Shown in pieces: positions 1 to 14,115 of a stretch of DNA of 14,115 nucleotides; position 1 is the stretch's first letter, and each line of letters starts with the position of its first letter. The notes below the pieces were generated by a model. It ran no database searches and was not told where the DNA came from. It saw nothing but the letters and a program-made list of their open reading frames with translations. Location of the stretch: NCBI RefSeq assembly GCF_003596405.1, contig NZ_QYUR01000005.1, positions 1 through 14,115 of the forward strand. Direction: 5' to 3'. The stretch is from Pseudomonas cavernicola. GTDB lineage: Bacteria > Pseudomonadota > Gammaproteobacteria > Pseudomonadales > Pseudomonadaceae. The translations under genes were made by a program, and so were the position numbers.

Positions 1-56
1 AAACGGAAGGATTGATGCCGACGAATTGAACCATCTGGCCATTTACGTTTACTCAT
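1..56 (-). CDS. Partial left copy of ribbon-helix-helix gene 2
   Basis: First 18 codons or so of the gene whose full copy lies at 12479-12661, read on the minus strand from an ATG at 56 and cut by the window start. It matches the right copy over its visible length. Confidence 0.6.
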   Translation of the reverse strand, partial: MSKRKWPDGSIRRHQSFR

Positions 57-224
57 TAACTTCTACCTCCTTCTTCTTGTGGTTGATAAATTCATTAACC
101 AATTCACTTGGCGACTTGCCCAGTAGAATTGCTTGGCGTTGCAGGTAGTGGAGGTTTTCCAAGCTGATTAGCATCAACTCTTACTGAATACGTCATTACC
201 GATATACAGATAATCTGATCTCAT
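49..224 (-). pseudogene. Broken left copy of ribbon-helix-helix gene 1
   Basis: Duplicate of the 58-codon gene at 12310-12486. One A is missing from an AAA run (near 182 here), so the span is 176 instead of 177 bases and the frame is lost after about 14 codons. The defect is probably a sequencing error, because the other arm reads through. It overlaps the neighbouring copy by 8 bases, as in the right arm. Confidence 0.6.
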
Positions 225-305
225 TGTTAAATCCTTTGTTTATAGGCGATAAAATCCCGCACACTGATAAGCTGTAGTTGGCTTGTCTTGGATGTGTTCG
301 ATGAA

Positions 306-327
306 ATTAGTGTTGAAAAACACTAAT
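306..327. promoter_or_regulatory. 9-bp-arm perfect hairpin (left copy)
   Basis: ATTAGTGTT and AACACTAAT separated by four bases; mirror of 12206-12227. It is identical in both arms, so it is not a base-calling accident. It lies upstream of the ribbon-helix-helix operon copy; see the right copy. Confidence 0.5.
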
Positions 328-361
328 AACAATGCTGTTTTGATCGATGTTTAGAGGGTGC

Positions 362-553
362 TTAGAGCTGGTTTGATTCTGCTTCAATCAAAAGCTGTTC
401 AATCTGCTCTTGAAGGGTGAAAAGCTGTTCAGTTGTATCAAGCTTGAACAACAAGTCTTTAAAAGTAAGCTGTAGCTTTCGGCGTGCACGGTGAAGCCTT
501 ACGCGGGGTGTGCTCGGGTAGTGCTTATTTTGTTGCGGTGGAGTCATTTTCAT
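362..553 (-). CDS. 63-residue hypothetical element protein (intact copy)
   Basis: Reads from ATG at 553 to TAA at 364-362, giving 63 residues. The N-terminal half is basic with many Arg, Lys and His residues. The C-terminal third (around EQLFTLQEQIEQLLIE) looks like an amphipathic or short coiled-coil helix. An AAGGA-type ribosome site precedes the start, which lies inside the end of the upstream zinc-ribbon gene, so translation is probably coupled. The right-arm copy has lost one A and is frameshifted, so this is the reference version. A continuous frame into the zinc-ribbon gene exists here only because that gene has lost a base; I do not believe in the 121-residue fusion. I do not recognise a family; a small nucleic-acid-binding protein is a guess. 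Confidence 0.6.
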   Translation of the reverse strand: MKMTPPQQNKHYPSTPRVRLHRARRKLQLTFKDLLFKLDTTEQLFTLQEQIEQLLIEAESNQL

Positions 554-727
554 TTTCCTTTTGTTGTTGTTTAAGAATGTCGAGCATTTCGGATTTGTTA
601 GGCCGAGTTTTACACGGAATTTGTGCATTTTGCTGTGGCAGACGTTTGAGCAGATTAGTTTACTTGCCCTGGTGCATTGCATTTCGGCATTGCACATGAG
701 GCAGTTTCGAATGGTAATAACAGCCAT
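525..727 (-). pseudogene. Frameshifted left copy of zinc-ribbon microprotein
   Basis: Duplicate of 11806-12009, starting at ATG 727. It is 203 instead of 204 bases because one T of a TT pair is missing near codon 46 (around position 590). The frame then runs into the downstream 63-residue gene and creates an artificial 121-residue fusion. The cysteine region is upstream of the defect and unchanged. Confidence 0.65.
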
Positions 728-1687
728 AAATAGGCCTCCGTTTTAATGGTGATGTTTAGATTGTATGGGTGGAATAACGAATTAAAGGTAAACAAAACGC
801 CAGAAACACCAAAACCGGAAGGGATGAGGTAACCTGAATGCCAGTGTGTAATGGCGATAACAAAATAACTGTAGGTCTATCGGTATCTAACGCCAAGAAC
901 AAAACCCACAGAGTGGGAAAGTCGAGGCTACAGTTTTTTGATTTACGCTGGCAGTCTTGTAAGTGACAGCGTTTGTTTACAGCAGAGGGTGAAGCGAAGA
1001 GGAGGTATTACAGTTTGAATCAAGAGGATAGAGCGAAAGGACAGAGCTATTGTAGGAAGTCCATTGCGGAATACTTGCACCAAACCTTTATCTTATTCAG
1101 TCAGTTTAAAGTATCATACTTACAAACGAAATTGCAATAGGGTGAAAACTAACTTACATATACTAAACAAGTGAAACCCGCATATCTAAAGGCTCGCAGC
1201 CATATTTGATTGAATTCATTATTTTTCAATATGCGACGAACGGTACTGCTAATACAATCTCTTTTGCCGATTACGCAACCAAGATCACCCGCAAGAGCGG
1301 AAATTTAACACAATCTCTGTCTCTATTTGTCTTAACGCTATACCGCTGTTGATCTTAATCTTCTCTACTTTCTTACATTCTACTCTATTTACCTGAGCAT
1401 CTGCGGTGGATCATACACCGCTACTACGATCTGTGGTGTTTTCAAAAGCGGGTAGAGCACTCTACAGTGGTCTGAAATTCTGTAAAGCTATTTCTATAAA
1501 CTTTACATACTCTGTGGATAACTTCACTACCATACGAAATACAAACATACGGGAAAAACAGTGTGTTTTGCGCGTTCTCTTGTTTTGGTGTGTCGGACAC
1601 GGAGAAAGCGAGAAAACGATTTTAGAGCCCCATTTTCCCTACGTTATAGGGAAGATGGGGCATGTTTAGCCTGTGTGCTGGTGCTGG
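728..1687. other. Left copy of the element's long non-coding region
   Basis: Mirror of 10842-11805 with small indel differences. It holds the same DnaA box, dyads and hairpins in reverse order; the box is read as TGTGGATAA on this strand near 1515. No convincing gene is present; an open frame at 1406-1669 has no family features or ribosome site I would trust. Confidence 0.6.
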
Positions 1688-3201
1688 TTAGAAATTGAAC
1701 TCAAGTAGCTTGATTGCCTCGGCCTTCTGCCCAAGTGAAGCGCCTGCACTGTAAACGTCGAAGGTTATGCTTCCACGGCGATGACCCAAAATGCTTGAGA
1801 TAACCAGTGGACTGGCCCCGGCTTGTTCTAGCTGCGTTGCCGTGCTGCTGCGAAAACTATGGAAACGTGGCGATCTGTGAACCCTTCGGCCTTCTTGAGC
1901 TTGGTGAACCGTTGCTGTGGGCCGTTCAGGCGTTTACCGGCTGCATCTGGTTTAGCTGCATACAAGAACCCATCCTTCGTCTGTTTGAGGCGCTGGACGT
2001 ACAGCGGGAGCAATGACGGGTGGATTGGTAGTGTTCGGATACCTGCGGCAGTTTTGAATCTTCCACGTTAAAAGCGATTGGCTGGTGGTTATCGTCAAAC
2101 ACGGTGGTGCTGGTGCTGATTCGTCCAATCTCTTCAATCCGGCAACCTGTCAGACAAGCAAACTTGATTAGGTCGGCTAATTCTTGGTCGCCCTTGGCCA
2201 CTGCTGCGGCGTGTAGCTGTTCTGCTTCCTGTCGTGTGTACGCTTCCCATGATTCACCCCCGGCCTTGCCTACCCCTTGCGTGGGTGTGTTCTGCGAATG
2301 GACTGGGGAGGTGGGCGAACTGATCACGGTAGGTCTGAACATACCGGCAGGCGTACTTATGCCACTTGCGCAAGGCCCATAGGTGGCCCTGCCTTGTCTG
2401 GGCGCTTGTCGCTGATCGTGTCCAGGTACTCGGCCACTGTATCGAACGTCAGCGGCTTGACCTGTGTGGTCAGGTATGAGGAGAAGGCTTCTAGCTTGCT
2501 GATGAGTACGGCGGTAGTGCGGGCGTTGTCGTTCTGGCTTTCGTATGCTGCCTGAATGCTGCAATGGCACCCGCGCTGATTGGTGACTTGGGTTTATAGG
2601 TCTTGGGATCGATAGCTATTGAAAGGGCTTCTGCTGCCTCGGTGGGAGACAGGTTGTAGTGTCTGGCAATGATCTGTGATGGGGCGGTTGGAAGGGTGCT
2701 AAGTGCTGAGCTGAGAAAGCCAATACTGTCGCCCTTTTGGGCAGCTTCCAAGCTGGGGATCAATTCAGAGGGGAGGCTGGTTGCACCATCCCTGTAAAGG
2801 AGGGCCACGACTTTAGCTAGGTCGGCGGCTGCCTCGGATAGTTTTGCATTCTGTTCTGCCTCGGACAGTGCAAAGAATGGATCGCTAGGGTGGGGCTTGT
2901 TCTTGATCGCTGATAGCAGGCTGTTGTCGATTCTTGCACCTAGAGCTTTAGCATTGTCTGCCAATTCCTCGCGCCATGCGTCCCCCTTAGCCAGCTTGGC
3001 GTCACGTATTGATCTAAATGAAGCTTTCCATTGTCCAATCACTTGAGTGGCAATGGTCTTGGCCAGCATCTTGTCGCCAGTCTTCAAGGATTTGCTAAGG
3101 ATTCGACGATTACCAAAGGCGTGGCGGAGGTCGGCGGGTACATCTATGCGGACATGCCACGTTGTGGAGCGCTGCACAAGGTGATTGGATTTTGCTGGCA
3201 T
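1688..3201 (-). pseudogene. Broken left copy of tyrosine recombinase
   Basis: Duplicate of the intact 9327-10841 integrase. Start to about 2546 is in frame (DUF6538-like N-terminus and middle). Five single-base indels against the right copy then break it: a lost A near 2545, an extra G at 2400-2402, an extra C at 2273-2276, a lost T in the run at 2052-2055, and a lost A at 1863-1865. All five lie in runs of two to five identical bases. There is one substitution, near 2681, changing Gln to Pro. Net length is 1514 against 1515. The pattern fits uncorrected long-read errors rather than natural decay, which would also give many substitutions. Confidence 0.85.
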
Positions 3202-3221
3202 AATGACACCACTGGAGGGGG

Positions 3222-3256
3222 ATTCTACCCACCAATTCTACCCAATATTTCTACCC
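3222..3256. repeat. Three 13-bp-spaced TTCTACCC repeats (left copy)
   Basis: ATTCTACCC, ATTCTACCC and TTTCTACCC begin at 3222, 3235 and 3248, exactly 13 bases apart. Mirror of 9272-9306. Confidence 0.6.
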
Positions 3257-3310
3257 AAAATATATCAAAACCCTTGAATGGCCGGTGTTTGCAGGGCTGG
3301 AGGTGCAATA

Positions 3311-3628
3311 TTGTACAAACTGTGTTTTTATGTCCCGGAAACTCATCTGGACGTTGTTAAGAATGCTGTTTTTGCCGCTGGTGCTGGGCGTATCGGCGCC
3401 TATGACAGTTGCTGCTGGCAGGCCCTCGGGCAGGGGCAGTTCCGGCCGCTGGCGGGCAGTCAGCCGTTCATCGGTCAGGCCGGTCTGCTCGAGCAAGTGG
3501 CAGAGTGGAAAGTCGAGTTGGTGGTGGCTGACGAGTTGATCCACGACGCGGTGAAGGCGTTGCGCACGGCGCATCCCTACGAGACACCGGCATTCGAGGT
3601 GTGGCGCTTGTCGGACTTGGTCTTCTGA
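3311..3628 (+). CDS. NIF3/YqfO-like small protein (left copy)
   Basis: Intact 105-residue copy, matching the one at 8900-9217 at protein level. The start is TTG at 3311, preceded by GGAGG seven bases upstream. See the right copy for the annotation. Confidence 0.75.
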   Translation: MYKLCFYVPETHLDVVKNAVFAAGAGRIGAYDSCCWQALGQGQFRPLAGSQPFIGQAGLLEQVAEWKVELVVADELIHDAVKALRTAHPYETPAFEVWRLSDLVF

Positions 3629-3637
3629 AATGCATCC

Positions 3638-3670
3638 AGCAAAAAAGGCGCTCGAGGGCGCCTTTTTGCT
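3638..3670. terminator. Bidirectional terminator (left copy)
   Basis: GC stem GGCGC/GCGCC flanked by A and T runs on either side, between convergent genes. Mirror of 8858-8890. Confidence 0.8.
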
Positions 3671-3724
3671 GTTTGATGTAGGGGGGAACTCACCAATGGT
3701 GCTGGATGGTGGGTTTCACCCACC

Positions 3725-4230
3725 CTACGGGCGGATTTCGATCAGGGTGCCATCTTTTACCACATTCCAGATTTCACGCATGTCGCTGTTCTTCATGGCG
3801 ATGCAGCCTTCGGTCCAATCCAGGGTATGGAAATACCACTCCGGGTACTCCTCATCCAATGGCGTGCCGTGGATCATGATCATGCCCGCCAGGCGGAACC
3901 CCTTCTTTGCGCGCGTTAGCCTGGTCGCGGATATTCGGGTAGGAGATATGCATGGCCAGGTTGTATTTGTCACTGTTCTTGCGCCAGTCGATCCAATAGA
4001 AACCTTCTGGAGTGCGGCGATCGCCCTCGCGCTGTTTGGCGCCTTCGGGTTGCTTGCCGAGAGAAACGCGATAGGCCTTCAGCACCTGGCCGTGTCCCAT
4101 TAGCAGCAGCTTGCGCTCGGATTTCACCACTAGAACCTTGTCCACGGCTTTGCCGTCGAGAGTCGGCGCGGCATTGGCGTGGGATAAAGTGGCAAAAAGA
4201 TAAACAGAGAACCGCTAACAACCAGCGCAT
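3725..4230 (-). pseudogene. Broken left copy of L,D-transpeptidase
   Basis: Duplicate of 8300-8803 with two one-base insertions: an extra C in the CCC near 3884-3888 and an extra A in the AAAAA near 4195-4199. Both are homopolymer expansions. The catalytic-cysteine region (3725-3880) is unchanged but out of frame with the signal peptide. Confidence 0.75.
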
Positions 4231-4268
4231 CGGAGCTATATCCCAGGTCATCGGAGCCGCCATGGCGG

Positions 4269-4824
4269 TCACGTTTTCTTGTAGTGCGCGCGCAAGGCCT
4301 CAACGGACTCATTGCGCACGGGGTAGGTCTGCGCTACCCGGTCGGCAAAGTAGCATTCTAAGGTACGGCCGACCGTCGGGAAAGCCAGCTCTGACCATGG
4401 GATGTCACGTTCGTGGAACAACTTCACCTCCAGGCTTTCGGCGCCGACGGCAAAGTCCAGGTCGACCAGCTCGGCGCGAAAAAACACATGCATCTGGCTG
4501 ATATGCGGCAGATCGAACAGGGTGTAGAGGCTCAGCCCTTGCACGCGGGCGCAAGCCTCTTCCAGCGTTTCCCGGGCGGCAGCCTGCTGCATGGTCTCAC
4601 CGTTCTCCATAAAGCCGGCGGGGAGCGTCCAGTAGCCGCGGCGCGGCTCAATCGCTCGACGGCAGAGCAGTACTTGCTCGCCCCATACTGGCACGCAGCC
4701 GGCGACGATTCGCGGGTTCTGGTAATGGATGGTCTGGCACTCAACGCAGACGAAGCGCGGGCGGTTATCGCCCTCCGGAATGCGCTGGCGTCACGGGGCT
4801 ACCGCACTGGCTACAAAACTTCAT
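4269..4824 (-). pseudogene. Broken left copy of zinc-ribbon Nudix hydrolase
   Basis: Duplicate of 7707-8261, one base longer. An extra G near 4787-4789 shifts the frame about twelve codons after the ATG at 4824, within the first half of the zinc ribbon. The Nudix box remains readable in a downstream frame starting near 4694. Confidence 0.75.
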
Positions 4825-4988
4825 GCCGGATCCTCTGTGTTCGTCGTCCATCTTGGCGCGCGGGTGGCCTTGGCGGCAAGTTGTCGAGGAGGCAAAGTCA
4901 CGCTGCTGAATGATGCCACCTGGTGGCGCAGGGCTTGGGCGAGCCGGTTCTTTCATGCCATGATGCCGAGCAGAACAAAAGACCGAGA

Positions 4989-5596
4989 ATGCCCATGCTC
5001 GATGAGCTACTCCACCGTGTGCGCAGCTATACGCCGCGCGTTCTGGAGACCGACCATAGCTTCCCAGAGGCGGCGGTGCTGGTGCCTATCACCCGCAGCG
5101 ACGCGCCGGAACTGGTGCTGACTTTGCGTGCCAGTGGTCTGTCGACCCATGGCGGCGAAGTCGCCTTCCCGGTGGGCGGCGCGACCCGGAAGACCGCGAT
5201 CTGATTGATACCGCGCTGCGTGAGGCGCAGGAGGAAATCGGTCTGCCGGCGGGTTTGGTCGAAGTGATTGGCCCGCTCAGTAGCCTGGTGTCGCGGCACG
5301 GCATTCAGGTCACACCTTATGTTGGCATTGTCCCCGCTTACGTCGAGTATCAGGCCAACGATGGCGAAATCGCCTCGGTCTTCACGGTGCCGCTGGAGTT
5401 CTTTCGCGACGATCCGCGGGAGATGACTCATCGCATCGACTACCTCGGCCGCAGTTGGTATGTACCGAGTTATCGCTATGGCGAATATAAAATCTGGGGC
5501 CTGACCGCGATCATGGTGGTTGAATTGGTCAATCTGCTTTACGACGCAGGGATCTCCCTGCATCAGCCTTCCGAATCCTTTATCAACCTGGGCTGA
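4989..5596 (+). pseudogene. Broken left copy of CoA-pyrophosphatase-type Nudix
   Basis: Duplicate of 6933-7542. One C is missing from the CCCC run near 5167-5170, inside the UPF0035/Nudix signature, so the frame breaks there. The C-terminal half, about 113 residues to the TGA at 5594-5596, is correct here, whereas the right copy is broken in that half. Left C-terminus plus right N-terminus give one clean protein of about 202 residues. Confidence 0.75.
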
Positions 5597-5622
5597 ATGG
5601 TCGCAGTTTTGAGGGCAACATC

Positions 5623-6147
5623 ATGAAATATCGCCTGGGACAGTCGAGTGTCGACGTGCATCCGGACAGTTGGGTTGCGCCGAATGCCACCTTGGTTGGC
5701 AAGGTCAAGCTGGAGCCTGGGGCCAGTGTCTGGTTCAACGTGGTGCTGCGTGGCGATAACGAACTGATCCATATCGGTGAGAACAGTAACGTGCAGGACG
5801 GAACGGTGATGCACACCGACATGGGCTATCCACTGTCCATCGGCAAGGGCGTGACCATTGGTCATAACGCCATGCTGCATGGCTGCTCGGTCGGCGAGTA
5901 CAGCCTGATCGGGATTAACGCCGTGGTGCTCAACGGCGCCAAGATCGGCAAGTACTGCATCATCGGCGCTAACGCCTTGATTGGCGAAGGCAAAGAAATT
6001 CCGGACGGCTCTTTGGTGATGGCTCACCGGGTAAGGTGGTGCGCGAGCTGACTGAAGCTCAGAAGAAAATGCTCGAAGCCAGCGCCGCGCACTACGTACA
6101 TAACGCCCAGCGCTACGCGCGCGATTTGGTCGAGCAGGGACGCTTGA
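5623..6147 (+). pseudogene. Frameshifted left copy of gamma carbonic anhydrase
   Basis: ATG at 5623, 26 bases after the Nudix stop, with GAGGG as ribosome site. It reads 132 correct residues and then loses one G of the GGG near 6018-6021. A compensating extra G in GAGCAGGG near 6138 leaves the total at 525 bases, matching a 174-residue protein. All three zinc-ligand histidines precede the defect. The natural stop TGA (6145-6147) shares its A with the DUF1289 start. Confidence 0.75.
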
Positions 6148-6298
6148 TGGACGTTGAGCGTCCAGTGGCCTCGCCTTGCGTGAGTGTCTGTGCGCTGGAC
6201 GATGCGGATATCTGCATCGGCTGCCAGCGCAATGTGGAGGAATCACCCGCTGGAGCCGCCGCATGGATACACCGCGCAGCGGGTCGCCATTCGTTGCT
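6147..6298 (+). CDS. DUF1289 protein, truncated by the fold-back
   Basis: ATG at 6147 overlaps the carbonic anhydrase stop (TGATG). The protein shows the DUF1289 cysteine signature PCVSVC, then CIGCQR, followed by VEEI-T-R-W if one missing A near 6240 is restored. This is a small protein family of unknown role with four conserved cysteines, likely metal-binding. About 50 codons are visible. The sequence then turns back on itself at about 6298 and becomes the opposite arm, so the true C-terminus is absent from the window. Confidence 0.65.
6236..6298. other. Unpaired centre of the giant palindrome
   Basis: These 63 bases are the only part of the 1-12534 span without a distinct mirror partner. 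They continue the DUF1289 reading (ITRWSRMDTAQRVA with small errors). Inside them ACCCGCTG (6245-6252) and CAGCGGGT (6277-6284) form a perfect 8-bp inverted repeat whose midpoint, 6264.5, almost coincides with the palindrome axis. This native dyad could have promoted the snap-back. Confidence 0.7.
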
Positions 6299-6299
6299 A

Positions 6300-6386
6300 C
6301 ATTGGGCGCTGGCAGCCGATGCAGATTCGCATCGTCCAGCCACAGACACTCACGCAAGGCGAGGCCACTGGACGCTCAACGTCCAT
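6300..6386 (-). CDS. DUF1289 fragment (right copy)
   Basis: Starts at ATG 6386 on the minus strand, sharing a base with the carbonic anhydrase stop, and runs into the fold-back after about 29 codons. Compared with the left arm it has short deletions near 6338-6345 (Cys-Ala-Leu region) and 6328-6332, so the second cysteine pair is out of frame. Errors in both arms rise near the centre. Confidence 0.5.
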
Positions 6387-6429
6387 CAAGCGTCCTGCTC
6401 GACCAAATCGCGCGCGTAGCGCTGGGCCG

Positions 6430-6906
6430 TTATGTACGTAGTGCGCTGGCTTCGAGCATTTTCTTCTGAGCTTCAGTCAGCTCGCGCACCACCTTACCCG
6501 GTGAGCCCATCACCAAAGAGCCGTCCGGAATTTCTTTGCCTTCGCCAATCAAGGCGTTAGCGCCGATGATGCAGTACTTGCCGATCTTGGCGCCGTTGAG
6601 CACCACGGCGTTAATCCCGATCAGGCTGTACTCGCCGACCGAGCAGCCATGCAGCATGGCGTTATGACCAATGGTCACGCCCTTGCCGATGGACAGTGGA
6701 TAGCCCATGTCGGTGTGCATCACCGTTCCGTCCTGCACGTTACTGTTCTCACCGATATGGATCAGTTCGTTATCGCCACGCAGCACCACGTTGAACCAGA
6801 CACTGGCCCCAGGCTCCAGCTTGACCTTGCCAACCAAGGTGGCATTCGGCGCAACCCAACTGTCCGGATGCACGTCGACACTCGACTGTCCCAGGCGATA
6901 TTTCAT
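6430..6906 (-). CDS. Gamma-class carbonic anhydrase family protein
   Basis: Left-handed beta-helix protein of the YrdA/PaaY-like gamma carbonic anhydrase family, with hexapeptide repeats over most of its length. Zinc-ligand histidines are His64, His81 and His86 ([12 protein letters not shown]), the spacing usual for this subgroup. In the known family these are cytoplasmic trimers; not all members show carbonic anhydrase activity. The start is ATG 6906, the second gene of an operon 26 bases after the Nudix stop. The visible frame ends at 6430 (158 residues) because five bases present in the left arm are missing near 6437-6441. The true end is at 6386-6388, giving 174 residues ending VEQDA, overlapping DUF1289 by one base. 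An extra G near 6428 is a second error. Function assignment is by motif only. Confidence 0.85.
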
Positions 6907-6932
6907 GATGTTGCCCTCAAAACTGCGACCAT

Positions 6933-7542
6933 TCAGCCCAGGTTGATAAAGGATTCGGAAGGCTGATGCAGGGAGATCCCTGCGTCGTAAAGCAGATTGA
7001 CCAATTCAACCACCATGATCGCGGTCAGGCCCCAGATTTTATATTCGCCATAGCGATAACTCGGTACATACCAACTGCGGCCGAGGTAGTCGATGCGATG
7101 AGTCATCTCCCGCGGATCGGTCGCGAAAGAACTCCAGCGGCACCGTGAAGACCGAGGCGATTTCGCCATCGTTGGCCTGATACTCGACGTAAGCGGGGAC
7201 AATGCCAACATAAGGTGTGACCTGAATGCCGTGCCGCGACACCAGGCTACTGAGCGGGCCAATCACTTCGACCAAACCCGCCGGCAGACCGATTTCCTCC
7301 TGCGCCTCACGCAGCGCGGTATCAATCAGATCGCGGTCTTCCGGGTCGCGCCGCCCACCGGGGAAGGCGACTTCGCCGCCATGGGTCGACAGACCACTGG
7401 CACGCAAAGTCAGCACCAGTTCCGGCGCGTCGCTGCGGGTGATAGGCACCAGCACCGCCGCCTCTGGGAAGCTATGGTCGGTCTCCAGAACGCGCGGCGT
7501 ATAGCTGCGCACACGGTGGAGTAGCTCATCGAGCATGGGCAT
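6933..7542 (-). pseudogene. CoA-pyrophosphatase-type Nudix hydrolase (NudL-like), frameshifted
   Basis: Nudix protein of the UPF0035/NudL group, predicted to cleave CoA or related nucleotides to 3',5'-ADP and 4'-phosphopantetheine. Visible signature: VLTLRASGLSTHGGEVAFPGG-type motif followed by the Nudix helix TALREAQEEIGL. Starts considered are ATG 7542 (MPMLDELL) and ATG 7536; longer upstream frames lack family support. An extra G in ATCGGTCGCG near 7117-7120 shifts the frame after EFFRD, so the C-terminal 60 residues or so are scrambled. The left arm (5400-5596) gives the correct end, SFINLG. Restored length is about 202 residues. It is the first gene of the operon with carbonic anhydrase and DUF1289. 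The break is probably a sequencing error, not a true pseudogene. Confidence 0.8.
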
Positions 7543-7706
7543 TCTCGGTCTTTTGTTCTGCTCGGCATCATGGCATGAAAGAACCGGCTCGCCCAAGCCC
7601 TGCGCCACCAGGTGGCATCATTCAGCAGCGTGACTTTGCCTCCTCGACAACTTGCCGCCAAGGCCACCCGCGCGCCAAGATGGACGACGAACACAGAGGA
7701 TCCGGC

Positions 7707-8261
7707 ATGAAGTTTTGTAGCCAGTGCGGTAGCCCCGTGACGCAGCGCATTCCGGAGGGCGATAACCGCCCGCGCTTCGTCTGCGTTGAGTGCCAGACCA
7801 TCCATTACCAGAACCCGCGAATCGTCGCCGGCTGCGTGCCAGTATGGGGCGAGCAAGTACTGCTCTGCCGTCGAGCGATTGAGCCGCGCCGCGGCTACTG
7901 GACGCTCCCCGCCGGCTTTATGGAGAACGGTGAGACCATGCAGCAGGCTGCCGCCCGGGAAACGCTGGAAGAGGCTTGCGCCCGCGTGCAAGGGCTGAGC
8001 CTCTACACCCTGTTCGATCTGCCGCATATCAGCCAGATGCATGTGTTTTTTCGCGCCGAGCTGGTCGACCTGGACTTTGCCGTCGGCGCCGAAAGCCTGG
8101 AGGTGAAGTTGTTCCACGAACGTGACATCCCATGGTCAGAGCTGGCTTTCCCGACGGTCGGCCGTACCTTAGAATGCTACTTTGCCGACCGGGTAGCGCA
8201 GACCTACCCCGTGCGCAATGAGTCCGTTGAGGCCTTGCGCGCGCACTACAAGAAAACGTGA
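7707..8261 (+). CDS. Zinc-ribbon Nudix hydrolase
   Basis: 184 residues. An N-terminal zinc ribbon (Cys4, Cys7, Cys26, Cys29) precedes a Nudix domain whose box spans Gly70 to Ala92 (GFMENGE, then RETLEEACA), close to the GX5EX7REUXEEXGU consensus with Ala at the final Gly position. The family hydrolyses nucleoside-diphosphate-linked substrates with a divalent metal; the layout recalls NudC-like enzymes but is shorter, and the substrate is not predictable. The ATG at 7707 is chosen because AGAGGA lies 8 bases upstream and the cysteine ribbon begins at residue 4; the frame continues upstream to 7575 without family features. It is divergent from the NudL-like gene across about 165 bases. Its stop overlaps a possible GTG start of the next gene (GTGA). 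Confidence 0.9.
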   Translation: MKFCSQCGSPVTQRIPEGDNRPRFVCVECQTIHYQNPRIVAGCVPVWGEQVLLCRRAIEPRRGYWTLPAGFMENGETMQQAAARETLEEACARVQGLSLYTLFDLPHISQMHVFFRAELVDLDFAVGAESLEVKLFHERDIPWSELAFPTVGRTLECYFADRVAQTYPVRNESVEALRAHYKKT

Positions 8262-8299
8262 CCGCCATGGCGGCTCCGATGACCTGGGATATAGCTCCG

Positions 8300-8803
8300 A
8301 TGCGCTGGTTGTTAGCGGTTCTCTGTTTATCTTTTGCCACTTTATCCCACGCCAATGCCGCGCCGACTCTCGACGGCAAAGCCGTGGACAAGGTTCTAGT
8401 GGTGAAATCCGAGCGCAAGCTGCTGCTAATGGGACACGGCCAGGTGCTGAAGGCCTATCGCGTTTCTCTCGGCAAGCAACCCGAAGGCGCCAAACAGCGC
8501 GAGGGCGATCGCCGCACTCCAGAAGGTTTCTATTGGATCGACTGGCGCAAGAACAGTGACAAATACAACCTGGCCATGCATATCTCCTACCCGAATATCC
8601 GCGACCAGGCTAACGCGCGCAAAGAAGGGGTTCCGCCTGGCGGCATGATCATGATCCACGGCACGCCATTGGATGAGGAGTACCCGGAGTGGTATTTCCA
8701 TACCCTGGATTGGACCGAAGGCTGCATCGCCATGAAGAACAGCGACATGCGTGAAATCTGGAATGTGGTAAAAGATGGCACCCTGATCGAAATCCGCCCG
8801 TAG
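8300..8803 (+). CDS. L,D-transpeptidase (YkuD domain), exported
   Basis: 167 residues from ATG 8300. A clear signal peptide (MRWLLAVLCL core, cleavage likely after SHANA, residue 20) implies periplasmic location. The YkuD catalytic region is visible: His120-Gly in MIHGTP, then DWTEGCIAM with the nucleophile Cys142. Such enzymes make 3-3 peptidoglycan crosslinks or attach proteins to peptidoglycan; which one applies here is unknown. In-frame starts at GTG 8258 (overlapping the Nudix stop), ATG 8267 and ATG 8279 would put an acidic, non-signal extension before the hydrophobic stretch, so I prefer 8300, although its ribosome site is weak and coupling from the Nudix gene is possible. It ends at a repeat hairpin and a terminator. 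Confidence 0.88.
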   Translation: MRWLLAVLCLSFATLSHANAAPTLDGKAVDKVLVVKSERKLLLMGHGQVLKAYRVSLGKQPEGAKQREGDRRTPEGFYWIDWRKNSDKYNLAMHISYPNIRDQANARKEGVPPGGMIMIHGTPLDEEYPEWYFHTLDWTEGCIAMKNSDMREIWNVVKDGTLIEIRP

Positions 8804-8820
8804 GGTGGGTGAAACCCACC
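8804..8820. repeat. GGTGGGT-GAA-ACCCACC hairpin
   Basis: Perfect 7-bp arms with a 3-base loop, immediately after the transpeptidase stop. Its mirror is at 3709-3725. It resembles the TAGGGTGGG...CCCACC intergenic repeats I know from Pseudomonas and relatives; a genome-wide count would confirm. Confidence 0.5.
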
Positions 8821-8857
8821 ATCCAGCACCATTGGTGAGTTCCCCCCTACATCAAAC

Positions 8858-8890
8858 AGCAAAAAGGCGCCCTCGAGCGCCTTTTTTGCT
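8858..8890. terminator. Bidirectional intrinsic terminator
   Basis: AGCAAAAAGGCGC, loop CCTCGA, GCGCCTTTTTTGCT. It has a GC-rich core with an A run on one side and a T run on the other, so it works on both strands. It sits between the convergent transpeptidase and YqfO-like genes and is present in both arms. Confidence 0.88.
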
Positions 8891-8899
8891 GGATGCATT

Positions 8900-9217
8900 T
8901 CAGAAGACCAAGTCCGACAAGCGCCACACCTCGAATGCCGGTGTCTCGTAGGGATGCGCCGTGCGCAACGCCTTCACCGCGTCGTGGATCAACTCGTCAG
9001 CCACCACCAACTCGACTTTCCACTCTGCCACTTGCTCGAGCAGACCGGCCTGACCGATGAACGGCTGACTGCCCGCCAGCGGCCGGAACTGCCCCTGCCC
9101 GAGGGCCTGCCAGCAGCAACTGTCATAGGCGCCGATACGCCCAGCACCAGCGGCAAAAACAGCATTCTTAACAACGTCCAGATGAGTTTCCGGGACATAA
9201 AAACACAGTTTGTACAA
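8900..9217 (-). CDS. NIF3/YqfO-like small protein
   Basis: 105 residues, beginning YKLCFYVPE after the initiator and ending VWRLSDLVF, with internal AAGAGRIGAYD and a GQAG-centred stretch. I recognise it as the short stand-alone protein usually annotated as NIF3 or YqfO-like in Pseudomonas, related to the PII/CutA-like insert domain of larger NIF3 proteins. Its function is unknown and it is probably cytosolic. The start is a TTG at 9217, supported by GGAGG at seven-base spacing; no ATG fits the family's N-terminus. The unusual TTG lies inside a near-palindrome (GTGCAATATTGTAC) close to the integrase gene, so the mobile element may have inserted at or just upstream of the start and supplied the leader. 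Both arms agree on the protein. Confidence 0.82.
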   Translation of the reverse strand: MYKLCFYVPETHLDVVKNAVFAAGAGRIGAYDSCCWQALGQGQFRPLAGSQPFIGQAGLLEQVAEWKVELVVADELIHDAVKALRTAHPYETPAFEVWRLSDLVF

Positions 9218-9271
9218 TATTGCACCTCCAGCCCTGCAAACACCGGCCATTCAAGGGTTTTGATATATTTT

Positions 9272-9306
9272 GGGTAGAAATATTGGGTAGAATTGGTGGG
9301 TAGAAT
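9272..9306. repeat. Three GGGTAGAA repeats, 13-bp period, before integrase
   Basis: GGGTAGAAA, GGGTAGAAT and GGGTAGAAT begin at 9272, 9285 and 9298. They end 21 bases before the integrase ATG. Evenly spaced direct repeats at this place suggest arm-type recombinase or excisionase binding sites, or an autoregulatory operator. Both arms carry all three. Confidence 0.65.
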
Positions 9307-9326
9307 CCCCCTCCAGTGGTGTCATT

Positions 9327-10841
9327 ATGCCAGCAAAATCCAATCACCTTGTGCAGCGCTCCACAACGTGGCATGTCCGCATAGATGTACCCGCCGACCT
9401 CCGCCACGCCTTTGGTAATCGTCGAATCCTTAGCAAATCCTTGAAGACTGGCGACAAGATGCTGGCCAAGACCATTGCCACTCAAGTGATTGGACAATGG
9501 AAAGCTTCATTTAGATCAATACGTGACGCCAAGCTGGCTAAGGGGGACGCATGGCGCGAGGAATTGGCAGACAATGCTAAAGCTCTAGGTGCAAGAATCG
9601 ACAACAGCCTGCTATCAGCGATCAAGAACAAGCCCCACCCTAGCGATCCATTCTTTGCACTGTCCGAGGCAGAACAGAATGCAAAACTATCCGAGGCAGC
9701 CGCCGACCTAGCTAAAGTCGTGGCCCTCCTTTACAGGGATGGTGCAACCAGCCTCCCCTCTGAATTGATCCCCAGCTTGGAAGCTGCCCAAAAGGGCGAC
9801 AGTATTGGCTTTCTCAGCTCAGCACTTAGCACCCTTCCAACCGCCCAATCACAGATCATTGCCAGACACTACAACCTGTCTCCCACCGAGGCAGCAGAAG
9901 CCCTTTCAATAGCTATCGATCCCAAGACCTATAAACCCAAGTCACCAATCAGCGCGGGTGCCATTGCAGCATTCAGGCAGCATTACGAAAGCCAGAACGA
10001 CAACGCCCGCACTACCGCCGTACTCATCAGCAAGCTAGAAGCCTTCTCCTCATACCTGACCACACAGGTCAAGCCGCTGACGTTCGATACAGTGGCCGAG
10101 TACCTGGACACGATCAGCGACAAGCGCCAGACAAGGCAGGGCCACCTATGGGCCTTGCGCAAGTGGCATAAGTACGCCTGCCGGTATGTTCAGACCTACC
10201 GTGATCAGTTCGCCCACCTCCCCAGTCCATTCGCAGAACACACCCACGCAAGGGTAGGCAAGGCCGGGGGTGAATCATGGGAAGCGTACACACGACAGGA
10301 AGCAGAACAGCTACACGCCGCAGCAGTGGCCAAGGGCGACCAAGAATTAGCCGACCTAATCAAGTTTGCTTGTCTGACAGGTTGCCGGATTGAAGAGATT
10401 GGACGAATCAGCACCAGCACCACCGTGTTTGACGATAACCACCAGCCAATCGCTTTTAACGTGGAAGATTCAAAAACTGCCGCAGGTATCCGAACACTAC
10501 CAATCCACCCGTCATTGCTCCCGCTGTACGTCCAGCGCCTCAAACAGACGAAGGATGGGTTCTTGTATGCAGCTAAACCAGATGCAGCCGGTAAACGCCT
10601 GAACGGCCCACAGCAACGGTTCACCAAGCTCAAGAAGGCCGAAGGGTTCACAGATCGCCACGTTTTCCATAGTTTTCGCAGCAGCACGGCAACGCAGCTA
10701 GAACAAGCCGGGGCCAGTCCACTGGTTATCTCAAGCATTTTGGGTCATCGCCGTGGAAGCATAACCTTCGACGTTTACAGTGCAGGCGCTTCACTTGGGC
10801 AGAAGGCCGAGGCAATCAAGCTACTTGAGTTCAATTTCTAA
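9327..10841 (+). CDS. Tyrosine recombinase / integrase (DUF6538-type N-terminus)
   Basis: 504 residues. The N-terminus (SNHLVQRSTTWHVRIDVPADLR...FG) matches the DUF6538 pattern seen in many element integrases. A helical middle and SAM-like region follow at about 215-300, then the catalytic domain. Visible catalytic residues are Arg354 (TGCRIEEIG), Lys383 in the beta hairpin, His448 and Arg451 (HSFR), His474 (LGHRRG) and the nucleophile Tyr484 (DVYSAG), a complete set, so it should be active. It would integrate and excise the element by strand exchange between attachment sites. It points into the element, with the chromosomal YqfO-like gene 110 bases behind it. The ribosome site is weak. A strong hairpin follows the stop by 27 bases. 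The left arm holds a copy broken by five single-base indels. Confidence 0.95.
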   Translation: MPAKSNHLVQRSTTWHVRIDVPADLRHAFGNRRILSKSLKTGDKMLAKTIATQVIGQWKASFRSIRDAKLAKGDAWREELADNAKALGARIDNSLLSAIKNKPHPSDPFFALSEAEQNAKLSEAAADLAKVVALLYRDGATSLPSELIPSLEAAQKGDSIGFLSSALSTLPTAQSQIIARHYNLSPTEAAEALSIAIDPKTYKPKSPISAGAIAAFRQHYESQNDNARTTAVLISKLEAFSSYLTTQVKPLTFDTVAEYLDTISDKRQTRQGHLWALRKWHKYACRYVQTYRDQFAHLPSPFAEHTHARVGKAGGESWEAYTRQEAEQLHAAAVAKGDQELADLIKFACLTGCRIEEIGRISTSTTVFDDNHQPIAFNVEDSKTAAGIRTLPIHPSLLPLYVQRLKQTKDGFLYAAKPDAAGKRLNGPQQRFTKLKKAEGFTDRHVFHSFRSSTATQLEQAGASPLVISSILGHRRGSITFDVYSAGASLGQKAEAIKLLEFNF

Positions 10842-10868
10842 CCCAGCACCAGCACACAGGCTAAACAT

Positions 10869-10903
10869 GCCCATCTTCCCCTATAACGTAGGGAAAATGG
10901 GGC
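10869..10903. terminator. Long hairpin after integrase
   Basis: GCCCATCTTCCC and GGGAAAATGGGGC form a stem of about 12 pairs with one mismatch or wobble and a loop of about 10 bases. The arms differ by the placement of one C. There is no clear U run, so terminator is a tentative label; a structural origin or RNA element is possible. Confidence 0.45.
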
Positions 10904-11009
10904 TCTAAAATCGTTTTCTCGCTTTCTCCGTGTCCGACAACACCAAAACAAGAGAACGCGCAAAACACACTGTTTTTCCCGTATGTTTGTATTTCGTATG
11001 GTAGTGAAG

Positions 11010-11018
11010 TTATCCACA
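11010..11018 (+). promoter_or_regulatory. Perfect DnaA box TTATCCACA
   Basis: Exact match to the high-affinity DnaA box consensus, present in both arms. It is followed within 70 bases by two dyads. A single box is not proof of an origin. Confidence 0.5.
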
Positions 11019-11023
11019 GAGTA

Positions 11024-11050
11024 TGTAAAGTTTATAGAAATAGCTTTACA
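11024..11050. promoter_or_regulatory. TGTAAAG / CTTTACA dyad
   Basis: Perfect 7-bp inverted arms with a 13-base AT-rich spacer, six bases after the DnaA box. Candidate binding site for a dimeric regulator or origin protein. Confidence 0.4.
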
Positions 11051-11065
11051 GAATTTCAGACCACT

Positions 11066-11079
11066 GTAGAGTGCTCTAC
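11066..11079. promoter_or_regulatory. GTAGAG-TG-CTCTAC dyad
   Basis: Perfect 6-bp inverted arms with a 2-base centre, typical of a small operator. No binding protein can be assigned. Confidence 0.4.
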
Positions 11080-11558
11080 CCGCTTTTGAAAACACCACAG
11101 ATCGTAGTAGCGGTGTATGATCCACCGCAGATGCTCAGGTAAATAGAGTAGAATGTAAGAAAGTAGAGAAGATTAAGATCAACAGCGGTATAGCGTTAAG
11201 ACAAATAGAGACAGAGATTGTGTTAAATTTCCGCTCTTGCGGGTGATCTTGGTTGCGTAATCGGCAAAAGAGATTGTATTAGCAGTACCGTTCGTCGCAT
11301 ATTGAAAAATAATGAATTCAATCAAATATGGCTGCGAGCCTTTAGATATGCGGGTTTCACTTGTTTAGTATATGTAAGTTAGTTTTCACCCTATTGCAAT
11401 TTCGTTTGTAAGTATGATACTTTAAACTGACTGAATAAGATAAAGGTTTGGTGCAAGTATTCCGCAATGGACTTCCTACAATAGCTCTGTCCTTTCGCTC
11501 TATCCTCTTGATTCAAACTGTAATACCTCCTCTTCGCTTCACCCTCTGCTGTAAACAA

Positions 11559-11666
11559 ACGCTGTCACTTACAAGACTGCCAGCGTAAATCAAAAACTGT
11601 AGCCTCGACTTTCCCACTCTGTGGGTTTTGTCGTTCTTGGCGTTAGATACCGATAGACCTACAGTT
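11559..11666 (+). other. Nested hairpins upstream of small-gene operon
   Basis: Three pairings in a row: ACGCTG/CAGCGT (11559-11564 with 11581-11586), an outer AACTGTAG/CTACAGTT (11595-11602 with 11659-11666), and inside it CCCAC-TCT-GTGGG followed by TTTT (11613-11629), which looks like a weak intrinsic terminator. Together they could be a structured leader, attenuator or small RNA. Indel differences between the arms fall in loops and linkers. Confidence 0.35.
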
Positions 11667-11805
11667 ATTTTGTTATCCATTACACACTGGCATTCAGGTT
11701 ACCTCATCCCTTCCGGGTGTTGGTGTGTTCTGGCGTTTTGTTTACCTTTAATTCGTTATTCCACCCATACAATCTAAACATCACCATTAAAACGGAGGCC
11801 TATTT

Positions 11806-12009
11806 ATGGCTGTTATTACCATTCGAAACTGCCTCATGTGCAATGCCGAAATGCAATGCACCAGGGCAAGTAAACTAATCTGCTCAAACGTCTGCCACAG
11901 CAAAATGCACAAATTCCGTGTAAAACTCGGCCTAACAAATTCCGAAATGCTCGACATTCTTAAACAACAACAAAAGGAAAATGAAAATGACTCCACCGCA
12001 ACAAAATAA
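11806..12009 (+). CDS. Zinc-ribbon microprotein
   Basis: 67 residues. Cysteines form CLMC (residues 9 and 12), then Cys18, then CSNVCHSKMHKFR (Cys26 and Cys30), like the small C-x2-C...C-x3-C zinc ribbons found in plasmid and phage microproteins. The rest is basic, with a polar Lys/Gln/Glu-rich tail. It probably binds DNA or RNA; its role is unknown. The start ATG has GGAGG at seven bases. A TACAAT -10-like hexamer lies at 11768, without a good -35. It is the first gene of the small-gene run, and the next gene begins 29 bases before its stop. The left copy is frameshifted. Confidence 0.75.
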   Translation: MAVITIRNCLMCNAEMQCTRASKLICSNVCHSKMHKFRVKLGLTNSEMLDILKQQQKENENDSTATK

Positions 12010-12171
12010 GCACTACCCGAGCACACCCCGCGTAAGGCTTCACCGTGCACGCCGAAAGCTACAGCTTACTTTTAAGACTTGTTGTTCAAGCTTGATACAA
12101 CTGAACAGCTTTTCACCCTTCAAGAGCAGATTGAACAGCTTTTGATTGAAGCAGAATCAAACCAGCTCTAA
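11981..12171 (+). pseudogene. 63-residue hypothetical, frameshifted right copy
   Basis: ATG at 11981 with AAGGA upstream, inside the end of the zinc-ribbon gene. One A is missing at 12074-12075 (AA against AAA in the left arm), so the frame is lost at codon 32. The left copy (362-553) reads 63 residues to the equivalent TAA. Probably a sequencing error. Confidence 0.6.
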
Positions 12172-12205
12172 GCACCCTCTAAACATCGATCAAAACAGCA
12201 TTGTT

Positions 12206-12227
12206 ATTAGTGTTTTTCAACACTAAT
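12206..12227. promoter_or_regulatory. Hairpin ATTAGTGTT / AACACTAAT
   Basis: Perfect 9-bp arms around TTTC, 83 bases before the first ribbon-helix-helix gene. It lacks a long U run, so an operator for one of the downstream DNA-binding proteins is more likely than a terminator. Conserved in both arms. Confidence 0.5.
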
Positions 12228-12309
12228 TTCATCGAACACATCCAAGACAAGCCAACTACAGCTTATTCAGTGTGCGGGATTTTATCGCCTATAAAAAAAG
12301 GATTTAACA

Positions 12310-12486
12310 ATGAGATCAGATTATCTGTATATCGGTAATGACGTATTCAGTAAAGAGTTGATGCTAATCAGCTTGGAAAACCTCCACTACCTGCAACGCC
12401 AAGCAATTCTACTGGGCAAGTCGCCAAGTGAATTGGTTAATGAATTTATCAACCACAAGAAGAAGGAGGTAGAAGTTAATGAGTAA
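12310..12486 (+). CDS. Ribbon-helix-helix-like protein 1
   Basis: 58 residues. After a short N-terminal strand region, LENLHYLQRQAILLGKSPSE followed by LVNEFI fits the helix-turn-helix part of a ribbon-helix-helix (Arc/MetJ/CopG) fold, with the typical small-polar turn (GKSPSE) and a closing helix. Such proteins bind DNA as dimers and often regulate their own operon. ATG 12310 has AAGGA at about eight bases. It overlaps the next gene by 8 bases. A short gene absent from standard 60-codon searches; the left copy is frameshifted. Confidence 0.6.
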   Translation: MRSDYLYIGNDVFSKELMLISLENLHYLQRQAILLGKSPSELVNEFINHKKKEVEVNE

Positions 12487-12661
12487 ACGTAAATGGCCAG
12501 ATGGTTCAATTCGTCGGCATCAATCCTTCCGTTTATACATCGACACTGAGGCTCTCAAGCGTCTTGAAAACTTACCAGATACAGAACACCCATCCTTAAG
12601 CTACCTAATTAATGAATTGCTTGAAGACTATCTAACAGAAAAGGAAAATACAAAACAATGA
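12479..12661 (+). CDS. Ribbon-helix-helix-like protein 2
   Basis: 60 residues. HQSFRLYIDTEALKRLENL supplies strand and helix 1, and HPSLSYLINELLEDYL supplies the turn and helix 2, a good fit to the ribbon-helix-helix pattern. Its SLSYLINELLEDYL is close to PLSGLLNELLEDWI in gene 3, so the two look like tandem duplicates. GGAGG precedes the ATG. The stop overlaps the next ATG (ATGA). Confidence 0.7.
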   Translation: MSKRKWPDGSIRRHQSFRLYIDTEALKRLENLPDTEHPSLSYLINELLEDYLTEKENTKQ

Positions 12662-12855
12662 GCGTTACACATTACGCCAGCGGTGAACCACGAAAATATA
12701 GGACTTGCCGCATTTGCTTAAGCATGAAGTTTGTAAGTGAATATGAAGCCATTGAAGGTGACAAGCCTCCGTTGTCAGGTCTTCTGAATGAGCTACTGGA
12801 AGACTGGATTATTACTGAACAACTGAAAATCGAATTTAAGAAGGTGAACAAATGA
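12658..12855 (+). CDS. Ribbon-helix-helix-like protein 3
   Basis: 65 residues. It is a paralogue of gene 2 by RICLSMKFVSEYEAIEG and PLSGLLNELLEDWI in the same order. The tail is Lys-rich. ATGA overlaps at both ends make translational coupling likely. No sequence repeat at DNA level is obvious, so the duplication is old or the fold similarity is convergent. Confidence 0.65.
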   Translation: MSVTHYASGEPRKYRTCRICLSMKFVSEYEAIEGDKPPLSGLLNELLEDWIITEQLKIEFKKVNK

Positions 12856-13042
12856 AATCTAGCATCCGAATCACCCTTAGCGAGCGCTGCACACAAGAGT
12901 TAATCAAACTTATGAACCAACTCGATATCGACAGCCCCACCACTGCGTCAATACCATCATCACTGAATACTACAAAAACCATTGTCTATCCCTGAAAGAG
13001 GAAAATTCTAATGAATCAAGCAACACCAGCACCAACCAATAA
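12852..13042 (+). pseudogene. Ribbon-helix-helix-like protein 4, probable one-base deletion
   Basis: SSIRITLSERCTQELIKLMN is a classic ribbon-helix-helix N-terminus. As written, the frame stops at 12995 after 47 residues with an uncharacteristic tail. Restoring one C near 12946 (GCG to GCCG) gives VNTIITEYYKNH, the expected second helix, and 63 residues ending at TAA 13040-13042, with the stop inside the next gene by 32 bases. The deletion is therefore probably a sequencing error. No second arm covers this place to confirm it. Confidence 0.6.
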
Positions 13043-14115
13043 CAACAAAGCAATTGCTGCCGTAAAATCTCGTTTTGTTCGCCTACCATCTGCTAATACC
13101 TACCCTCGTTTCCGTGACATTATCACAGGTATTGAGCAAGCAGACGCCGCCATTCTTTGCCATTACTACCGCAAGCATAGTAATAGTGCTGACAACACCC
13201 CTGAGGCCCAATATCTCGTTAACTGCCTTGAGTGGGTATATGGCGAAGGCTTCCAGCCTAATGCTGGCAATGTAATCAATGGTGGTTTACTAAACCTTTG
13301 GAAGCCTTCCAGCATTCAACCAAGCGGCCAGCTTGTTAAGCCTGAACAAGTACAACCATTCTTAGAATTCCTACGCCGCTGGTTTCCTAATGACCTTGAA
13401 CGTCAGTATATGGGCTGGTGGCTCTCTCACACAGTACGCAAACCAGAAGTTAGAATTATCGCCACGCCAGTATTGAGAAGTGAACACGGCATAGGTAAGG
13501 GGTTTTTAGTTGAGACTCTGCTTTCTACCCTACTCGGTAAATCTTCTGTAGCGGTATGCGGCCTAAAGGACGTTGTAGGCGATTTTAACGACGTTGTAGA
13601 AGGTAAGACGCTGCTATTGATCGATGAGGTGTACAAGAGCAAAAAAAGCACTACAGACGCGCTCAAGAGCTTCCAGGGCAACGCCACTATCCCGCTGCAC
13701 AGAAAGCACAAGCCAACGATCACCATTGATAACTATCTGAATTTCATCATCACCAGTAATGACCACTTACCGCTAATACTTGAGAAAGGCGATCGCCGCT
13801 TTTGGATTCCCGGTTTTATCACTCATAAAGAATCAGTCACCGAGACAGCCGAATTTATCAACACGGTGTTGAAGCCTTGGCTACAGAATGAAAATGGTTT
13901 TCAGCTTGTGCGGGATTATTTGGAGCAAGTGGATTTGTCGAAATTCCGCCCAACTGATGCACCACCTATGACAACCAGTAAGCAGGAACTTATGGGCTTT
14001 AGCACTACTGACAAGCTGGAAGAGGTGTTAGCGGACGTTGTAGAGGCTAACAAAGTGCTGACCGTTAAGTGGGTGAAGGATACTTATGGTGGTGATTTTG
14101 AGCATGGCTTGTCTG
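13011..14115 (+). CDS. Virus-type (SF3-like) replication helicase, cut at window end
   Basis: 368 codons visible; the 3' end lies outside. The central region carries a Walker A variant (SEHGIGKGF, residues 157-165), Walker B LLLIDEV (201-207), sensor FIITSN (245-250) and GDRRFW (260-265), in the order and spacing of superfamily 3 / DUF5906-type helicases of phages and phage-derived elements, often fused to or beside a primase. Residues 1-140 show no primase motif I can name. The likely role is unwinding at an element origin. ATG 13011 has GAGG upstream and lies within the restored end of the previous gene, making it the fifth member of one operon. Confidence 0.8.
   Translation, partial: MNQATPAPTNNNKAIAAVKSRFVRLPSANTYPRFRDIITGIEQADAAILCHYYRKHSNSADNTPEAQYLVNCLEWVYGEGFQPNAGNVINGGLLNLWKPSSIQPSGQLVKPEQVQPFLEFLRRWFPNDLERQYMGWWLSHTVRKPEVRIIATPVLRSEHGIGKGFLVETLLSTLLGKSSVAVCGLKDVVGDFNDVVEGKTLLLIDEVYKSKKSTTDALKSFQGNATIPLHRKHKPTITIDNYLNFIITSNDHLPLILEKGDRRFWIPGFITHKESVTETAEFINTVLKPWLQNENGFQLVRDYLEQVDLSKFRPTDAPPMTTSKQELMGFSTTDKLEEVLADVVEANKVLTVKWVKDTYGGDFEHGLS

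Follow-up and report, generated by a model that had tools for sequence, protein, structure and literature searches.

A fold-back artefact in long-read data is defined, in PMC12870357, by an opposite-strand segment within 200 bp, and is near-symmetric when its turn lies within 10% of the midpoint. According to the same paper, foldbacks make up about 0.55-0.6% of ONT gDNA reads, no systemic foldbacks were present in three PacBio samples, and near-symmetric fold-backs are treated as reasonably filtered out. PMC3504050 reports that about 1% of PacBio reads retain adapters, with overlapping opposite-strand subreads, and palindromes originating from whole-genome amplification are described in PMC6218980. 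In E. coli devoid of SbcCD and RecA, large inverted chromosome duplications arise at a 246-bp interrupted palindrome (PMC3315005); these are the closest precedent found for a real event of the kind considered below.

The window, that is, the whole stretch of DNA analyzed here, comprises 14,115 bp and is the entire contig C5 of an assembly of 8 contigs and 5,626,424 bases. In a minus-strand self-BLAST, positions 1-12534 matched their own reverse complement in one match (E = 0) with 99.06% identity over 12,584 columns; the match runs from 1-12534 against 12534-1 with 18 mismatches, 68 gap openings, and 100 gap columns. The 12.5-kb near-perfect palindrome claimed in the first-pass annotation of this DNA is therefore confirmed. 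The C5 locus is also present, complete and unfolded, in contig C6 (1,228,233 bp) at 753001-760876. Referred to C6, the window is composed of the following parts:

Window 1..6289, minus strand: left arm of the fold-back, equal to the reverse complement of C6 753001-759294 (BLAST, 99.48% over 6,307 columns).
Window 6298: position to which the left arm may extend, judging by end alignment, reaching C6 752995.
Window 6290..6298: turn point; its 9 bases could be left-arm sequence full of errors (C6 752995-753000) or else filler outside the alignment.
Window 6299..12534, plus strand: palindromic part of the right arm, C6 753049 to 759294, delimited by the self-match.
Window 12535..14115, plus strand: unduplicated tail, collinear with C6 up to 760876, where the contig ends; it is the contig's sole unique flank.

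The right arm and tail taken together (window 6299-14115) match C6 753049-760876 with 99.73% identity over 7,832 columns (BLAST). As the earlier annotation had it, the arms combine host genes with part of a mobile element: slightly less than half of each is chromosomal DNA with host genes, and each also takes in one terminus of an integrated element that carries a tyrosine integrase. The chromosomal genes encode a hexapeptide-repeat protein, which we take to be gamma-carbonic-anhydrase-like, two NUDIX proteins, and a YkuD L,D-transpeptidase.

Contig C6 runs past the turn point into additional sequence; on the other side it continues beyond the outer end of the fold-back, where the remainder of the mobile element is followed by a long frame, presumably purL. 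Besides C5, no further near-identical copy of the locus was found in the genome, either among the best 40 of 79 candidate matches or in a second search in which 13 of 13 were inspected. Both ends of C5 lie within C6-like sequence, and there is no new junction. A 32-kb self-comparison of C6 at E up to 1, which very short repeats would escape, revealed no inverted repeat at the turn.

An unfolded copy in C6 would, taken by itself, be compatible with a genuine inverted duplication or a hairpin-capped end that exists in a minority of cells beside the normal chromosome, and the E. coli duplications described in PMC3315005 show that structures of this type exist. We nevertheless consider such a variant extremely improbable, since C6 has no seeding inverted repeat at the turn within the limits of the self-comparison and since neither end of C5 leads into a new junction. 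Stated for this locus, a minority fold-back inversion at C6 753.0 kb, producing a hairpin-capped or head-to-head duplicated end, would have had to form without a palindromic seed, which we find hardly credible. Two further observations that bear on it, the nature of the differences between the arms and the presence of a fold-back in another contig, are given below.

The element that enters the arms is approximately 9.74 kb long and lies between exact 19-bp direct repeats (C6 755952-765714). Its features in the window are as follows:

Window 3312..3330, minus strand: left-arm copy of the 19-bp direct repeat, an att-like core, exactly matching C6 755952-755970 and 765696-765714.
Window 9198..9216, plus strand: right-arm copy of the same 19-bp att-like core, an exact match to the C6 repeats.
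Window 9327..10841, plus strand: tyrosine integrase (DUF6538 + Phage_integrase), intact, 504 aa, its family assigned from the C6 copy of identical length.
Window 1691-3201, minus strand: left-arm copy of the tyrosine integrase, frame-broken.
Window 3223-3257 and 9271-9305, with counterparts at C6 756025-756059 and 765617-765638: copies of the TGGGTAGAA motif.

Products of the element include the DUF6538 tyrosine integrase, a DUF5906/VapE-like protein, and a resolvase. It adjoins a small gene at its predicted start; this gene has no Pfam hit and is assumed to be Nif3-like. A scan of 46,115 bases revealed no tRNA or tmRNA gene that could serve as a target. In two related genomes, G012 and G008, the element flanks meet over the 19 bases, as expected of an empty site, and G014 is also without the element. 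The motif TGGGTAGAA recurs with 13-base spacing within ~60 bases of both element ends, three times at the end with the integrase and twice at the opposite end; these repeats are possible candidates for recombinase arm sites. The integrated element is real, but its boundaries are not those of the palindrome. Its direct repeats (C6 755952 and 765696) coincide neither with the turn (753.0 kb) nor with the arm end (759.29 kb), which bears out the earlier view that the arms are not accounted for by any element boundary. An end-to-end dimer of the mobile element was rejected because the repeats lie away from both points and slightly less than half of each arm consists of chromosomal DNA.

Some match to the chromosomal part of the locus was found in 37 of the 38 genomes searched, a set that includes the source genome itself. 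For three relatives (G014, G012, and G008), the 8-kb locus was fetched; in each, a single alignment spans the turn point in the same order as in C6, and none of these loci contains an inverted copy of an arm. The only inverted self-match in the three at E up to 1e-10 is a 38-base stretch in G008, located more than 3 kb from the turn. Among six relatives compared at the turn, two span it in one alignment, three are collinear with C6 and leave about 80-110 bases unaligned there, and the sixth (L021, from G010) aligns from the turn onward only. In G001 and G010, two of the 24 same-genus relatives, the stretch matching C6 752701-752894 is found either on a different contig or, on the opposite strand, at a distance of 5 kb. 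Since the piece beyond the turn lies elsewhere in these two genomes, gene order at this place varies somewhat in the genus; no inverted arm copy appears among the listed matches of either to the chromosomal part.

The turn of C5 lies near window 6290-6299. The left arm stops at C6 753001 (or 752995) and the right arm begins at 753049, 48-54 bases around the turn are present in one arm only, and 0-9 bases separate the arms. Measured against the description of long-read fold-backs, the opposite-strand segment of C5 thus begins 48-54 bp away, inside the 200-bp limit; the turn at ~6298 is offset by 5.4% from the midpoint at 7058, a value calculated on the contig and not on a read, and is inside the 10% limit; and an unfolded path crosses the same place in C6 and in G014, G012, and G008.

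The 9 bases at the turn can be aligned to C6 752995-753000 if extra bases are allowed, and 221 of 2000 random 9-mers align equally well. A first impression that they represent a shortened nanopore adapter was discarded, as no convincing score relative to shuffled sequences was obtained. This comparison involved four adapter sequences, nanopore and PacBio, each scored at the turns of C3, C4, C5, and C7 (16 tests with 300 shuffles each). None of the 16 tests gave a convincing match; the lowest count, 13 of 300 shuffles reaching the observed score, was that of a nanopore adapter at the C5 turn.

These data bear on two routes by which a fold could be introduced during library preparation or sequencing. 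The first is nanopore sequencing, either through an unsplit reading of template plus complement or through a strand folding back in the library, as happens with nanopore gDNA. The short interval of 0-9 bases between the C5 arms agrees with it, as does the foldback rate of about 0.55-0.6% in ONT gDNA (PMC12870357); on the other side, the three ONT adapters match the C5 turn weakly (27, 13, and 47 of 300 shuffles reach their scores). We judge this route evenly poised between right and wrong. The second is PacBio continuous long-read sequencing in which a SMRTbell hairpin adapter went unrecognized, a possible but rather doubtful source. The retained-adapter rate of about 1% in PMC3504050 would favor it, and so would the fact that indels of any size account for 39 of the 42 differences between C5 and C6. 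However, no SMRTbell remnant was found at the C5 turn, where the adapter sequence scores 13, a value reached by 246 of 300 shuffles, and the two arms are shifted against each other by about 50 bases instead of being flush.

The left arm holds 28 of the 42 difference events between C5 and C6, and the right arm with its tail the remaining 14. In agreement with the earlier claim that the differences are mostly single-base indels, 33 of the 42 events are of this type (left arm, 23 of 28; right arm with tail, 10 of 14); 19 of the 23 and 6 of the 10, respectively, are located where the same base occurs at least twice in succession. Substitutions are limited to two in the left arm and one in the right arm and tail. 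Events crowd at the turn: positions up to and including C6 753200 account for 6 of the 28 in the left arm and 6 of the 14 in the right arm, leaving 22 and 8 events beyond this point.

Related genomes could be used to judge the nine events in the interval C6 753100-756010; the remaining 33 are located at the turn or in the element. All nine sites favored C6 in every relative above the score threshold, with no ties and none in favor of C5. The numbers of relatives passing the threshold were 14, 14, 10, 1, 14, 13, 10, 1, and 11 of 19 offered, so that two of the nine sites rest on a single relative. Six genes common to both arms are all open in C6, and five of the six are frame-broken in the left arm, compared to two of the six in the right arm. 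In the two genes affected in both arms, the breaks are at different positions. Both arms share one single-base homopolymer difference, near C6 758.9 kb, and are therefore not fully independent of each other at that position; this would be accounted for by a systematic homopolymer error or by a mistake in C6 itself.

The C5/C6 differences look like read errors, and their density in C5 suggests low coverage. Frame-breaking, error-like differences that are unequal between the arms also argue against the genuine inverted duplication.

Other contigs of the same assembly fold back as well. Contig C4 (15,641 bp) is palindromic over 1-15598 (15,598 bases, 98.9%), and both its halves match C2 1910054-1917932, a locus unrelated to that of C5. 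In C7 (10,993 bp), bases 1-10764 match C8 889406-900212, and the last 166 bases fold back on 10358-10532. All three contigs shorter than 20 kb (C4, C5, and C7) are thus largely redundant and fold back, C7 at its tip only. Contig C3 (329,515 bp) opens with a 7,780-base palindrome (99.4%), and its start is probably a fold-back read at a contig end. The rest of the assembly yielded no near-identical unfolded copy of this palindrome; the closest match beyond C3 itself is 70% over 1.2 kb in C8, and an artefact is therefore not proved for C3. The palindrome check covered at most the first 20 kb of C1, C2, C3, and C8, and the first 5 kb of C6 together with 32 kb at the locus. A dispersed repeat of ~150 bases, located at C4 5584-5732, also occurs in many places in C2, C3, C6, and C8, with at least a few dozen genome copies among the best 40 of 275 candidates.

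The fold-back of C4 at an unrelated locus points to a general process and weighs further against a genuine duplication at the C5 locus. A third route to the artefact would be whole-genome (multiple displacement) amplification, in which the polymerase switches to an already made copy; palindromes of this origin are described in PMC6218980. We regard it as an unlikely source here, as the genome shows no sign of amplification, is listed as 100% complete, and consists mostly of three contigs of about 1-3 Mb.

Overall, the presence of the same region once and unfolded in C6, together with the further fold-backs in the assembly, makes C5 almost certainly an artefact: as far as sequence comparison can tell, it is a fold-back chimera from library preparation or sequencing and not a chromosomal structure. 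This was already the simplest reading in the first-pass annotation, which spoke of a fold-back chimeric read or a mis-joined contig and proposed checking for a path, free of duplication, that continues into the chromosome. Such a path was found in C6 and in related genomes and, with the arm-specific indels and the additional fold-backs, supports the artefact reading.

Such a chimera could have formed when one strand of a fragment extending over approximately C6 753.0-760.9 kb was joined to its own complement in a single read. The longer arm would probably have been read first (window 14115 down to 6299), followed by a turn that skipped about 50 bases in one arm; the complement, read last (window 6298 down to 1), would have stayed incomplete. 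The assembler, unable to place the palindromic read, or a few such reads, in C6, may then have left a separate, poorly polished contig. Redundancy with C6, fold-back geometry, the pattern of errors, and the additional fold-backs are direct observations, whereas the origin in a single read or a few reads, the reading order, and the joining chemistry are inferred.

For users of this assembly, a quality warning is in order: three of the eight contigs (C4, C5, and C7) are largely redundant, and a fourth, C3, starts with a palindrome. Genes counted from these contigs would appear as false duplicates with false frameshifts. The fold-back of C5 carries no information on the organism's biology; the integrated element is accessible to study in its C6 copy.

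Compared to known systems, C5 resembles the palindrome-seeded E. coli case (PMC3315005) in being a large inverted duplication but differs from it in that no seed was found at the turn, the unfolded chromosome is present, and the arm differences are error-like. Whole-genome amplification chimeras, as PMC6218980 presents them, are likewise long artificial palindromes that disturb assembly, whereas the DNA of C5 bears no sign of amplification. Overlapping opposite-strand copies and indel-dominated errors are shared with reads retaining a SMRTbell adapter (PMC3504050), from which C5 is distinguished by the ~50-base arm offset and by the lack of a detected adapter remnant. The Breakinator-profiled long-read fold-backs of PMC12870357 are known in reads, whereas C5 is an assembled contig; they share with C5 an opposite-strand segment within 200 bp, near-symmetry, little or no sequence at the turn, and a normal unfolded path.
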